Assembly: GCF_002114285.1 (NCBI RefSeq)
Contig: NZ_NEDJ01000003.1
Coordinates: 62,001-126,000 of the forward strand
Source: Halorubrum ezzemoulense DSM 17463
GTDB lineage: Archaea > Halobacteriota > Halobacteria > Halobacteriales > Haloferacaceae
Direction: 5' to 3'
Length of the DNA: 64,000 nt
The translations under genes were made by a program, and so were the position numbers. Below are positions 14,102 through 20,362 of this stretch, in pieces. Within the stretch, counting starts at the first letter, position 1, and each line of letters starts with the position of its first letter. Below the pieces are notes generated by a model. It was given only the letters and a program-made list of their open reading frames with translations, did not search any database and had not been told where the DNA came from.

Positions 14102-15148
14102 TCACTCCGACGCCGGGCGCGCGCCGGTCCCCGCGCGGTCCTGATCGGCGAGCCGGATCTCACCGTCCGGGAGGTCGATACCCTCGTACGGGTCGTCGTC
14201 GAGCAGCAGCGACCCGTCGATATCGGCGTAATCGAGGAGTGGCGCGAGCTGCGCGGCGGCCGCGATGGAGGCGTTCGACTCGATCATACAGCCGCACATC
14301 ACCTCCAGCCCGTGCGCTCGCGCGGCGGCGATCACCCGCCGGGCCTCGGACAGGCTCCCGGCCTTCATCAGCTTCAGGTTCGCGATGTCGCAGCGGTCGG
14401 CGATCGCGGGCACGTCCGCCGCGGTCACGCAGGACTCGTCGGCGGCGATCGGGAGTTCCGACCGCTCGTAGACGTACCGGAGCCCCTCGGGGTCGTCGGC
14501 CGAGACGGGCTGCTCGACGAACTCCACGTCGCGGTCGGCGAGCCACGCGCTCTTCGCGACCGCCTCCTTCGGCGTCCACGCCTCGTTCGCGTCGACCCGG
14601 AGCCGCGCGTCGGGCGCCGCCTCGCGGACGGCGTCGACCAGCTCGCGGTCGCGGTCGGTCCCGAGCTTAAGCTTCAACACGTCGTGGCCCGCCGCGACGG
14701 CGTCGGCGGCCTTCTCGCGGACGCGGTCGGTCTCGTCGAGTCCGACGGTGAACGACGTCTTCGGCGCGTCGCTCGGGTCGAGCCCCCACAGGCGGTGGAG
14801 GGGGACGCCGAGCCGCTTCGCGGCGAGGTCGTGGACGGCGATCGAGACGGCACAGCGGGCGGCGGGGTTCCCGTTCACGACCGCCCGCAGCTCGGTCTCG
14901 ATCTCGCGGACTGCGTGGGGCTCGCCGACGCGCTCGACGGCGTCGAGGAGGTCCGGCATGACCGCCGCGACCGTGTCGGCCGTCTCGCCGTAGTGGGTCG
15001 ACGGCGCCGCGCCGCCGACCCCGGTCATCCCCGCGTCGTCCGTCACGCGGACGACCACGTTCTCGGCCGCCGTCTGCGTCCCCCGCGAGATGGTGAACGC
15101 GTTCTCGAGCGGCAGCGACACCCGCTCGAACTCGGTGTCGAGGCTCAT
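14102..15148 (-). CDS. dgcA: N-acetyl-D-glutamate racemase / dipeptide epimerase-like enolase superfamily enzyme
   Basis: An enolase-superfamily enzyme of the dipeptide epimerase subgroup. The catalytic set is complete: KxK at Lys159/Lys161 (VLKLKLGTD), metal ligands Asp186 (RVDANEAW), Glu212 (FVEQP) and Asp237 (AADES), and the second base in NLKLMKAGS (about Lys259). The CMIES and DIDGSLLL motifs near the end are typical of dipeptide epimerases. Its start overlaps the stop of the DUF1611 gene by four bases (ATGA). That pairing is the DgcN-DgcA arrangement described in marine proteobacteria and haloarchaea, where DgcA racemises N-acetyl-D-glutamate to the L form. The specific substrate is inferred from this context. 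Confidence 0.87.
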   Translation of the reverse strand: MSLDTEFERVSLPLENAFTISRGTQTAAENVVVRVTDDAGMTGVGGAAPSTHYGETADTVAAVMPDLLDAVERVGEPHAVREIETELRAVVNGNPAARCAVSIAVHDLAAKRLGVPLHRLWGLDPSDAPKTSFTVGLDETDRVREKAADAVAAGHDVLKLKLGTDRDRELVDAVREAAPDARLRVDANEAWTPKEAVAKSAWLADRDVEFVEQPVSADDPEGLRYVYERSELPIAADESCVTAADVPAIADRCDIANLKLMKAGSLSEARRVIAAARAHGLEVMCGCMIESNASIAAAAQLAPLLDYADIDGSLLLDDDPYEGIDLPDGEIRLADQDRAGTGARPASE

Positions 15149-16251
15149 TCGGCCGCTTCCTCCCCGTCGACCTCCGAGTCGGCGTCCGCGGCGTCGACCG
15201 CGCCCAGTCCGGCGTCGAGGGCGGCGTCGACGACGGCGTCCGCGCCGTGGCGTACCGGGTCGCTCGCGGGACCCCCGGTCTCGTCGGCGAACGCGGCGAC
15301 CGCCTCGGCGGCCGCCTCGTCCTCGTCGATGGTCTTCGTGTTCACCGCCCCCGCGACGACGCTCGCCTCGTGGACGGGCGCCGCCAAGTCCTGGTAGAGG
15401 TCGACGTAGTCGGCGAGCGGCGGGAGGGCGAACTCCTCGTAACCGTGGACGACCTCGCGGCCCGCGGCGTGACAGAGGACGAGCCCGTCGGCCATCGACC
15501 CGTGGAGGATACCGCAGGTGACCGCCGAGTAGGCGGGGTGGACGATGCTCCCCTGCCCCTCGACGACGAGGAGGTCGTGGTCGTCGCCGACCTCGGCGAG
15601 CATGTCCTCGACCGCGCCGGCGGCGAAGTCGGAGACGACGCGGTCGATCGGGTTCCCCCAGCCGGCGATCATGATCCCGGTCTGGCCGGTCGGGACGAAC
15701 GCGGCGTCGATGCCGCGCTCGCGGGCGGCCGCGACGATCTCCAGCGAGGCGGTCATCTTCCCGACCGAGCAGTCGGTCCCGACAGTGAGCAGCACGTCGG
15801 CGTCCACGTCGCCGGACGCGCCCGTCGCGACCGTGAGGTCGTCGTCCGGCTCGCGCACGTCGACGAGGTCGACACCGTGGTCGTCCGCGAGCGCGGCCAG
15901 CTCCTCGTCCTCGTTCAGGAAGTAGTGGAGACCGCTCACCACGTCACAGCCCGCCTCGATCGCGGCCTCGACGTCCGACCGCCACGACTCGTCGAAGCCG
16001 CCGCCGATCGGCGCGATTCCGATGTACAAGGCGTCGAGGTCGCCGTCGGCCGCCGCGTGCGCCTCCTCGAACGACGCGACGATCGGCGCGTCCCCCACGT
16101 CCGCGACGTGATCGCTCACGCGGTCGCCGGCGCGGTCGCGGTCGAGGACGGCCCGGACGTCTTGGTCGCCGTAGCGCAGCACGCCGAGCGCGGTCTTCGC
16201 GCGGTCGGGGAACTTCTCGTGGGCGAGGACGGCGATCCGCTCGTGGTCCAT
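15145..16251 (-). CDS. dgcN: DUF1611 D-glutamate N-acetyltransferase-like protein
   Basis: A DUF1611 (COG3367) protein of 368 residues. The N-terminal region is Rossmann-like (about 1-125), and the C-terminal P-loop-like domain carries GTDCSVGKMTASLEI near residue 150, PTGQTGIMIAGWG, and VEGQGSIVHPAYSAVTCGILHGS. Members were shown to acetylate D-glutamate in the DgcN-DgcA pathway, feeding N-acetyl-D-glutamate to the racemase. It is the first gene of a two-gene operon with dgcA. The start is ATG 16251 (MDHERIAVLAHEKFP); the longer in-frame reading upstream crosses the inverted-repeat region and is arginine-rich. The last 30 residues are an acidic alanine-rich tail. Confidence 0.85.
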   Translation of the reverse strand: MDHERIAVLAHEKFPDRAKTALGVLRYGDQDVRAVLDRDRAGDRVSDHVADVGDAPIVASFEEAHAAADGDLDALYIGIAPIGGGFDESWRSDVEAAIEAGCDVVSGLHYFLNEDEELAALADDHGVDLVDVREPDDDLTVATGASGDVDADVLLTVGTDCSVGKMTASLEIVAAARERGIDAAFVPTGQTGIMIAGWGNPIDRVVSDFAAGAVEDMLAEVGDDHDLLVVEGQGSIVHPAYSAVTCGILHGSMADGLVLCHAAGREVVHGYEEFALPPLADYVDLYQDLAAPVHEASVVAGAVNTKTIDEDEAAAEAVAAFADETGGPASDPVRHGADAVVDAALDAGLGAVDAADADSEVDGEEAAE

Positions 16252-17575: not shown

Positions 17576-18307
17576 CTACTCCACGACTTCGACGACCGGA
17601 TCGTCCGCGGTCAGGCGCGTGAGAACGACGCGCGGCACGTTCGCGCGCATGAGGATCTCCCCGGCGAGCGCCCGGGCCGCGGCGGCGTCCGCCTCGTCGT
17701 CGACCTTGTTCACGACCGGGATCGCGGTCGCGTCGCCGGGGACCCCCTTCAGCCCGCCCGCGGGACTCGCGAGGACCGTCGCGACGTCGGCCGGGCGGAT
17801 CTCGTCGCCGATCTCGCGGCCCGTGATCGCGGCGACCTCCTCGGGGCGGTGGACGTGCTCCTCCGTGAGCGGTTCGCCGACGACGTGCGCGCTCGCGATC
17901 GGGGCGACGATGTCCGCGTTCGACGGGATCTGCGGCTCGCGGTCGCCCGGCGCCTTGAACTCGCGGAGGCGCGCCCCGTCCGCCTTCACGAGCGTCGCGC
18001 CGGGCGCGGCGTCGGCGATCTCGGCGACGGTCTCCGTGTCGTACCCGAGGTACCGGTCCGACCGGTCGCGCTCGGGGACCAGCCCGAGCGGCCACTCGTC
18101 GGGTCCCGCCTCGCCGAGCGCGGCCACCGGGTCCGCGGTCACGCGCACCGCGGCGACCCGGTCGTCGAAGATCGGTATTCGGACGCTCGCGGTCACGACC
18201 GGCCGGTCGAGCCGGTCGGCGAGCGCGAACAGCGTCGACTTCTTGCCGCCCGCGCCGACGACGCAAACGGTCGCGTCGCGGGCGTCGAGCGCGGTCGTCA
18301 GGTCCAT
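17576..18307 (-). CDS. yqeC: YqeC-family protein (selenium-dependent hydroxylase accessory)
   Basis: A 243-residue protein with a P-loop-like start CVVGAGGKKSTLFALADRL and the later segments LVKADGARLREFKAPG and PVVNKVDDEADAAAARALA typical of YqeC. In bacteria this family is linked to maturation of molybdenum or selenium-dependent hydroxylases; its biochemical role is not established. It is divergent from the aldehyde ferredoxin oxidoreductase-like gene, 112 bases away, which supports a link to tungsten or molybdenum metabolism. Start taken at ATG 18307 (MDLTTALDARDATV); an ATG 30 bases upstream is possible. Confidence 0.8.
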   Translation of the reverse strand: MDLTTALDARDATVCVVGAGGKKSTLFALADRLDRPVVTASVRIPIFDDRVAAVRVTADPVAALGEAGPDEWPLGLVPERDRSDRYLGYDTETVAEIADAAPGATLVKADGARLREFKAPGDREPQIPSNADIVAPIASAHVVGEPLTEEHVHRPEEVAAITGREIGDEIRPADVATVLASPAGGLKGVPGDATAIPVVNKVDDEADAAAARALAGEILMRANVPRVVLTRLTADDPVVEVVE

Positions 18308-18418
18308 GCCGGGGCGTTCAGTCGCATCGGACCTCACTCTGGCGGTCGGACGGGCGGCCGACCGGCGGCGTCGCGGCGGCGGACAAATTGATACGACTCC
18401 GCCACGCAGGTCAACCGG

Positions 18419-20362
18419 ATGCGCCGAAACCGCACCCGAGTCATTCGCGTGGACCTCTCGACGCGCGAGACTACCAGCGAACGGGTCCCGCGGGACTGGC
18501 GACGCGACTTCGTTGGCGGGAAGGGGATCGGAGCGCGCTACCTCTACGAGGAACTCTCGCCGGGAACGGACCCGACGGGGCCAGAGAATCTCCTCGCGTT
18601 CCTCGTCGGGCCGCTCGCGGGCTTCCTACCGGGAGAGACCCGGTACGCCGCAGTGACGAAGTCGCCGCTCACCGGCGGGTTCCTCGACTCGTACGCCGGC
18701 GGCGACTTCGCCGTCCGGCTCGCGGGGTCGCTCGACGACTGCATCGGCCTGCTCGTGACCGGGACCGCCGACAGACCGGTCCGGATCGAGGTCGAGGGGG
18801 GTCGCGCCCGGGTCAAGCCGACCGACGCGTGGGGCGACGACGCCGCCGAGACCGCCGACCGGTTCCCGGACGCCGGCGTCGCCTGCGTCGGCCCGGCCGG
18901 CGAGCGCGAGGCGGCGTACGCGACGATCGCGAGCGACGGCGGCGACCACCACGCCGGGCGCGGCGGCGCCGGCGCAGTGATGGGCGCGAAGCGGCTGAAA
19001 GCCGTCGTCGCCCGCGACCCCCCGCCGGCGGTCCCGGACGACCTCGCCGCCCGCCGCGACCGCGACGCCGAGACGTACGGGCGGCGGCCGACCGGCGAGT
19101 GGCAGGCGGCCGGCGAGACGATCGAGACGGTCGACTACGCGGACGAGGTCGGGATCCTCGCGGCCGAGGGATGGACGGAGACCGGCTTCGACGGAGTCGA
19201 CGACATCGGCGTCGAGGCCGCGGCGGAGCGCGCGGCCGGACGCGAAGCCGTCAGTGCCGGCCGTGACGGTGACGGCCGAGAGGGCGCCGAGAGCGGACCG
19301 GCGGGCGTCCCCGGCGGATTCCGGATCGACACGTCCGACGGCGAAGTGATCCCGCGCGGCGCGGCCCCGATCACGCTCGGCGCCGGCCTCGGGATCGACG
19401 ACTTCGACCGCGTCGCGGAGCTCTGCGGGGTCTGCGACCGTCTCGGCCTCGACGTGATCGGCGCGGGCAGCGCGGTCGCCTGGGCGATCTGCGCCGGGCG
19501 GGCTGGGGTCGTCGACTGCCCGGTCGACTTCGGTGACGCCGCTGGCGCAGAGCACCTGCTGAAGGCGATCGCGGCCCGCGACCCCCCGGCCGATCTCGAC
19601 GTGGACCCGGACCTCCCGGACGCCCTCGCCGACGGGGTCGACGCCGCGGTGGCCCAATTCGGCGGCGACGCGCTCGTGCCGACGGTGAAGTCGATGGCGC
19701 TGCCCGGCTTCGACCCGCGCGCGGCGGTCGGCGTCGCGCTCGCGTACGCGACGAGCGACCGCGGCGCGTGTCACCGGCGCGCGCGACCGCAGGAGCGCGA
19801 GCCGCTGGCACGTCCCGACCGCTCCCTCGCCGACCGGGTGCGCGACGTGGTCGGGGAGCAGAACGCGCGCTCGGTCCTGTGGAGCCTCGTCGTCGACGAC
19901 TTCGTCGGCGAGGCGGTCTGTGCCGACCTCGGCGCGGAGTGGCTCGCGGCGATCGAGCACCCGGCGGTCGCCGACTGCGGCGGCCCGCACCGCGACGAGT
20001 CGGAACGCGGGGACGCGGGGGACGCTGGCCGACCGGATCCCTCCCCCGCCGCGCTCGCGACGACCGGCGAGCGCATCTGGACGCTCACCCGACTGTTCAA
20101 CGCCCGAGAGGGGTTTGACCGCGCGGACGACGCGCTCCCCGAGCCGCTCCGCACCGACGCGGCCGACGGGACGCCGGGCGTCGACGTCGACGCGTTCGAC
20201 CGCCTGCTCGACCGGTACTACGCGGCACGCAGGTGGGGCGAACGGGGGCTCCCGACGCCGGAGACCGCCGAGCGCCTCGGACTCGCGCGCGTCGTCGACG
20301 ACGCGACGCCGCTGGACGATAGCCCGATCGACTCCGCCCCGGCGGCCGACGCGGACGACTGA
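18419..20362 (+). CDS. aldehyde ferredoxin oxidoreductase family protein lacking the usual cluster cysteines
   Basis: A 647-residue homologue of tungsten-pterin aldehyde ferredoxin oxidoreductases. The N-terminal pterin-binding domain is well kept: FVGGKGIGARYLYEEL near 31, TKSPLTGGFLDSYAGG near 80, GRGGAGAVMGAKRLKAVV near 180. Domain 2 keeps DRLGLDVIGAGSAVAWA near 340, and the end keeps RIWTLTRLFNAREGF. The CxxCxxxC cluster ligands expected between residues 255 and 310 are absent; that stretch is alanine/glycine-rich with no cysteine. The fourth ligand, normally in a DSxGLC motif, is replaced by SVLWSLVVDDF near 485. It is therefore probably not a standard [4Fe-4S] AOR. Neighbour of yqeC. 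Confidence 0.8.
   Translation: MRRNRTRVIRVDLSTRETTSERVPRDWRRDFVGGKGIGARYLYEELSPGTDPTGPENLLAFLVGPLAGFLPGETRYAAVTKSPLTGGFLDSYAGGDFAVRLAGSLDDCIGLLVTGTADRPVRIEVEGGRARVKPTDAWGDDAAETADRFPDAGVACVGPAGEREAAYATIASDGGDHHAGRGGAGAVMGAKRLKAVVARDPPPAVPDDLAARRDRDAETYGRRPTGEWQAAGETIETVDYADEVGILAAEGWTETGFDGVDDIGVEAAAERAAGREAVSAGRDGDGREGAESGPAGVPGGFRIDTSDGEVIPRGAAPITLGAGLGIDDFDRVAELCGVCDRLGLDVIGAGSAVAWAICAGRAGVVDCPVDFGDAAGAEHLLKAIAARDPPADLDVDPDLPDALADGVDAAVAQFGGDALVPTVKSMALPGFDPRAAVGVALAYATSDRGACHRRARPQEREPLARPDRSLADRVRDVVGEQNARSVLWSLVVDDFVGEAVCADLGAEWLAAIEHPAVADCGGPHRDESERGDAGDAGRPDPSPAALATTGERIWTLTRLFNAREGFDRADDALPEPLRTDAADGTPGVDVDAFDRLLDRYYAARRWGERGLPTPETAERLGLARVVDDATPLDDSPIDSAPAADADD

Follow-up and report, generated by a model that had tools for sequence, protein, structure and literature searches.

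What can a member of the aldehyde ferredoxin oxidoreductase (AOR) family do once the ligands of its [4Fe-4S] cluster are gone? The question is raised by a forward-strand gene (18419-20362) in the 64,000-nucleotide stretch of the Halorubrum ezzemoulense DSM 17463 genome that was analysed here (the window), the 647-aa product of which had been described in the initial annotation as an AOR homologue without the cluster cysteines. Profile searches assigned AFOR_N (2.1e-57) and AFOR_C (9.6e-64) to this protein and no other domains. Its AlphaFold2 model, obtained from 52 aligned sequences (mean pLDDT 92.3), was matched by Foldseek to Pyrococcus furiosus FOR (1B25; TM 0.85/0.89) and AOR (1AOR; TM 0.82/0.87); because both matches span the whole length, the predicted AOR fold is very well supported. 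Sequences gathered from named genomes and from relatives yielded a haloarchaeal clade of 48 orthologues, referred to here as AORx. The window's own genome (3.6 Mb) carries two further AFOR_C genes (L001 and L002), both with the CxxCxxxC motif. In two other genomes, AORx is spread over two frames (L061:7986-9769 and L084:7572-9807), which may represent pseudogenes or sequencing errors.

Residues were mapped by aligning the 48 AORx proteins and 31 cluster-bearing relatives, mostly bacterial, onto 1AOR. No AORx protein has a residue in the columns of C288, C291 and C295, whereas cysteine occupies them in 31, 31 and 30 of the 31 relatives; the fourth ligand, C494, is Asp in 48/48 AORx proteins (Asp493 in the window protein) and Cys in 31/31 relatives. 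In the window protein, the place of the missing CxxCxxxC site lies at about residues 276-277 (RE; 19244-19249, forward strand), and it is true, as first noted, that no cysteine occurs from the cluster region until residue 336. Three cysteines only, C156, C339 and C451, recur in essentially every AORx protein, and some members have no more than two or three altogether, so a substitute four-cysteine site is absent; a displaced set of four ligands was sought across the AORx alignment and none was found, which leads us to reject a shift of the cysteines to nearby positions. A lone mutant or pseudogene is likewise rejected, since all 48 orthologues, close relatives included, share the loss, and dN/dS values of 0.22-0.33 against close relatives indicate that the gene is under purifying selection. 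As the loss of the cluster is conserved family-wide, the earlier suggestion that this protein works differently from other AORs is supported.

The pterin-binding motifs, which had been called intact, are so only in part. R76, G95, the GRGG loop, T243, the first DxxGLD motif (D343) and H448 are kept in all or nearly all AORx proteins, with T243, H448 and C451 invariant, and the position of Y427 is occupied by Tyr or Phe (34 and 14 sequences, respectively). In the window protein, the alignment places the first motif at DRLGLD (residues 340-345; 19436-19453) and the H448 equivalent, kept in 48/48, at Cys451-His452 within RGACH (19769-19774), both on the forward strand. Six other positions are altered in all 48 sequences: E313 to Ala or Gly, Y312 to Gly, E311 to Arg, R182 to His, D489 to Trp and C494 to Asp. 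Accordingly aligned on the same strand, PRGA (residues 312-315; 19352-19363) replaces P-E-Y-E(313) and removes the active-site Glu, and His177-His178 (18947-18952) stands at R182-A183 of P. furiosus AOR, a pair found in 47/48 AORx proteins. A recent classification of the superfamily lists T243, E313, Y427 and H448 as the conserved tungstopterin-site residues of aldehyde-oxidising WORs (PMC13328260), a set that is incomplete in AORx through the loss of E313. Of the two DxxGL(C/D) pterin motifs, the first is thus kept and the second is replaced, by WSLVVD in the window protein (residues 488-493; 19880-19897, forward strand). Each DxxGL motif serves one pterin in the 1AOR structure, and the second faces the cluster; judged from these roles, AORx probably retains one pterin half-site and has had the cluster-facing half rebuilt.

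A second haloarchaeal AOR group, AORy (L144:5231-7096, L145:4341-6293 and L146:4929-6809), is about 40% identical to AORx. The two groups share the DSYSGG and HHAGRGG motifs, including the His-His pair, but AORy keeps all four cluster cysteines and PEYE, and its neighbour genes differ from those of AORx. The SHHAGRGG and DSYSGG motifs of AORy are unusual, and its cluster is intact. A tree computed without the cluster and Glu313 columns recovers AORx as a single clade and AORy as the sister group, SH-aLRT support being full (100%) for both. Because AORy keeps the four cysteines, their loss most likely took place on the branch leading to AORx. The AORx clade is spread over many haloarchaeal families; outside haloarchaea, every one of the nearest archaeal relatives examined, from genomes of the same phylum, keeps the cysteines.

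The genomic context of AORx points to its partners. Divergent from the window gene, across an intergenic region of 111 bp (18308-18418), lies the reverse-strand gene of YqeC (17576-18307; an alternative start would extend it to 18337), and this order is conserved across Halorubrum species. AORx and YqeC were found within 6 kb of each other in at least 60 genomes and in four relative arrangements, confirming that the pair first seen in the window is kept elsewhere. Among 33 named loci, two layouts recur. The Halorubrum-type layout comprises the formate dehydrogenase (FDH) alpha subunit (TIGR01591, above cut-off), a formaldehyde-dehydrogenase-like Zn-ADH of the glutathione-independent type, a CobW GTPase, a 199-aa protein, YqeC and AORx; the second consists of AORx, a DUF7124 protein, two proteins of 88 and 128 aa and an HdrA-like multi-Fe-S protein, to which some loci add a TorD-like (PF02613) chaperone or a TAT-type FDH. 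The 199-aa protein (L044:7206-7805 and relatives) has no Pfam or NCBIfam match and adjoins FDH and AORx in 10/33 loci. MobA, MoaA, MoeA, the TorD-like chaperone and CobW recur or turn up occasionally near AORx, MobA or MoeA being close to several AORx loci and one locus (L156) having the order MoaA, YqeC, MobA, AORx. At least 26 genomes have AORx and FDH no more than 6 kb apart, and in several the two genes are direct, convergent neighbours. Of these gene sets the window retains only the divergent YqeC-AORx pair, and the FDH block of other Halorubrum is missing at this site. The single FDH of this genome, with the Cys-His signature RLCH, is its only MGD-domain enzyme; it lies on another contig (G000:C68; L152:3753-7691), where none of its neighbours is a recognised Mo-cofactor gene, and adjoins a protoglobin-MCP chemoreceptor gene.

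The initial annotation had connected AORx, through yqeC, to molybdenum/selenium hydroxylases, a connection that did not hold. The window protein does belong to the same family (TIGR03172, 162 bits) as the YqeC of selenium-dependent molybdenum hydroxylase systems, whose link to these enzymes was originally drawn by Haft and Self in 2008 (PMC2276186), and the NCBIfam model named 'selenium cofactor biosynthesis protein YqeC' matches both haloarchaeal clades. However, the selD-adjacent YqeCs form one clade (100/100), apart from all AORx-linked and YqeC-only ones, including that of the window. SelD was above cut-off in only 23 of 243 haloarchaeal genomes and had no match above cut-off in the window's own genome, and the system with which this YqeC is tied is FDH and AORx. 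We therefore reject a selenium link for the AORx-linked clade, and the window YqeC is, by its placement in the tree, a member of a selenium-independent clade. The two haloarchaeal clades (L157-L164 compared with window 17576-18307) also differ in a motif, TTTTxMPP in the SelD-adjacent one and TATVRIPI in the FDH-linked one. A 2016 survey had considered that YqeB or YqeC alone may act in selenium-unrelated processes (PMC5029168), and the function of YqeC is still regarded as uncertain (PMC11448449). The protein appears GTPase-like: it contains an invariant GAGGK P-loop (GAGGKKS in the window) and NKVD, and its AlphaFold2 model (pLDDT 97) is closest, though weakly, to the cofactor-loading GTPases MeaB/IcmF (E 3e-4, TM about 0.4).

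Co-occurrence was assessed in 243 haloarchaeal genomes (within G000-G275) of at least 90% completeness, the same set being used for each gene and FDH being called at E <= 1e-120. AORx was present in 128, YqeC in 163 and FDH in 179, and three more genomes had only AORy. YqeC occurs in 128/128 AORx genomes versus 35/115 of those lacking AORx (Fisher p 1e-36, kinship ignored), and none of the 80 YqeC-less genomes has AORx; four further AORx genomes of low completeness, outside the 243, all have YqeC. FDH occurs in 124/128 AORx genomes versus 55/115 without AORx (Fisher p 8e-20, kinship ignored). Many genomes share the AORx and FDH pairing by ancestry, so these p-values overstate independence. The four FDH-negative AORx genomes all encode some other enzyme with an MGD-binding domain, and in one of them, G209, AORx adjoins a 998-aa TAT-type FDH-like gene whose match stayed under the FDH threshold. 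Furthermore, 36 genomes contain MGD-domain enzymes but no FDH call, and 32 of them lack AORx and 30 lack YqeC, which indicates a link to FDH and not to molybdoenzymes at large. The link of AORx to YqeC and FDH is thus well supported.

This link does not extend to every FDH. FDH was found without AORx in 55 genomes, so AORx is not required for all of them, and without YqeC in 22, about 20 of which have FDH frames of about 757-930 aa, the cleanly readable proteins being 757-798 aa. As an FDH subtype is present without YqeC, what maturation requires may vary between FDH subtypes. A subtype of 757-800 aa with DNCNRLCH (L125, L126, L129, L131 and L132) was observed in most of the genomes with FDH and without YqeC. 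The FDH cofactor is a metal-bis-MGD with a terminal sulfido ligand, which elsewhere is installed by FdhD after MobA (PMC13197769). FdhD (PF02634) was found in 0/243 haloarchaeal genomes, while the control matches were recovered in Escherichia coli, Methanocaldococcus jannaschii and Methanosarcina acetivorans. FdhD is thereby rejected as the FDH partner in haloarchaea, and the haloarchaeal FDHs must gain their terminal ligand by another route.

Since YqeC always and FDH nearly always accompany AORx, and the Fe-S wire and part of the active site are lost, AORx is more likely to help build FDH than to oxidise aldehydes. We tentatively propose, at somewhat less than even confidence, that AORx, itself non-catalytic, serves as a carrier or scaffold for Mo/W-pterin and, together with the GTPase-like YqeC, takes part in the maturation of certain FDHs, given that much of the pocket is kept, the relay and Glu313 are lost, YqeC is always present and MobA and FDH are often near. 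A former aldehyde-oxidising redox enzyme would thus have been turned into a carrier for a subset of haloarchaeal FDHs. A metal cofactor intermediate, probably bis-pterin, might be held in that half of the AOR cofactor pocket which is retained; YqeC, as a G3E-like GTPase, could power loading, terminal-ligand chemistry or release; and the cofactor would then be handed to MobA and the FDH alpha subunit, so that AORx and YqeC together would cover the steps performed elsewhere by FdhD. Given the 55 genomes with FDH and without AORx, AORx must serve only some FDHs, the remainder being matured otherwise. The more encompassing proposal, that haloarchaea mature part of their FDHs without FdhD by means of a repurposed, Fe-S-less AOR as metal-pterin carrier and a selenium-independent YqeC GTPase, is advanced with greater reserve, as a possibility. 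Other points also weigh against the carrier role: half of the AORx pterin site is altered, the FDH of the window's genome is on another contig without adjoining recognised Mo-cofactor genes, and deletion of a selenium-type yqeC of Clostridioides difficile gave no clear phenotype (PMC11448449).

Other readings of the same evidence are less favoured. It is unlikely that AORx remains an active Mo/W-pterin enzyme of C1 metabolism (formaldehyde or formate), working in the pathway of FDH through a relay-free, non-redox reaction such as hydration or isomerisation. The invariance of T243, H448 and C451 would suit such an enzyme, as would the Zn-ADH that adjoins FDH in the AORx cluster of many Halorubrum and the formate-tetrahydrofolate ligase, identified by eye from sequence, near a few AORx loci; but the Zn-ADH is missing from the second locus type, none of the 48 AORx proteins retains Glu313, a conserved residue of aldehyde-oxidising WORs (PMC13328260), and the constant presence of YqeC together with the MobA and MoaA neighbours suggests cofactor handling instead of substrate turnover. 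Similarly improbable is that AORx, as a pseudoenzyme without cofactor, partners the FDH complex in a structural or regulatory role. The near-invariance of R76, G95, the GRGG loop, D343 and H448 goes beyond the needs of a bare scaffold, and the strict dependence on YqeC would be left unexplained, even though the destruction of half of the pterin site, the loss of the catalytic Glu and the direct, convergent adjacency of AORx and FDH in several genomes are all in keeping with this role.

We consider it quite improbable that AORx is a redox enzyme passing electrons directly from its metal-pterin to a docked Fe-S partner. The candidate partner, the HdrA-like 4Fe-4S protein, is encoded downstream of AORx in 11/33 loci but is absent from the Halorubrum-type loci, that of the window included; neither D489 nor C494, which lie on the cluster-facing side, is retained, and every class in the 2026 WOR classification is described as having a large subunit that bears the cluster (PMC13328260). 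A general Mo-cofactor storage protein tied to no single enzyme, as the AOR fold and the MobA and MoaA neighbours might suggest, is very improbable in view of the absence of AORx from 32/36 genomes whose MGD-domain enzymes are not FDH.

Among the known systems closest to AORx is the AOR/WOR large subunit (P. furiosus AOR 1AOR and FOR 1B25; Haloferax volcanii WOR83 9Q1T). AORx resembles it in the full-length fold (TM 0.82-0.89 to 1AOR and 1B25), both Pfam domains, T243, H448 and the first DxxGLD, but differs in having no [4Fe-4S] ligands, no Glu313, WSxxxD for the second DxxGLC, and YqeC and FDH as partners. FdhD, the FDH sulfurtransferase and cofactor chaperone, would share with the proposed carrier the handling of the metal-pterin for FDH, but AORx contains AFOR domains only and is not homologous to it. 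According to the 2026 classification, cofactor- and cluster-coordinating residues of the superfamily vary very little (PMC13328260), a constancy that is broken by AORx as a new constrained clade. Our literature search for cluster-less AORs returned nothing, and the titles and abstracts of work on YqeC with FDH, and on haloarchaea with FDH and FdhD, do not describe the link. AORx genes would be annotated as aldehyde ferredoxin oxidoreductases, yet their products cannot relay electrons likewise. The carrier proposal joins three loose ends in one testable system, namely the function of YqeC, the absence of FdhD despite many FDHs and the misleading AOR annotation; if it is correct, YqeC would gain a function, and AORx would be, to our knowledge, the first AOR-fold protein engaged in cofactor assembly instead of catalysis.

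Elsewhere in the window, positions 14102-16251 encode a DgcA-related (racemase-like) and a DgcN-related (DUF1611) pair, both below the NCBIfam cut-offs, the order of which is conserved in at least two other Halorubrum loci.
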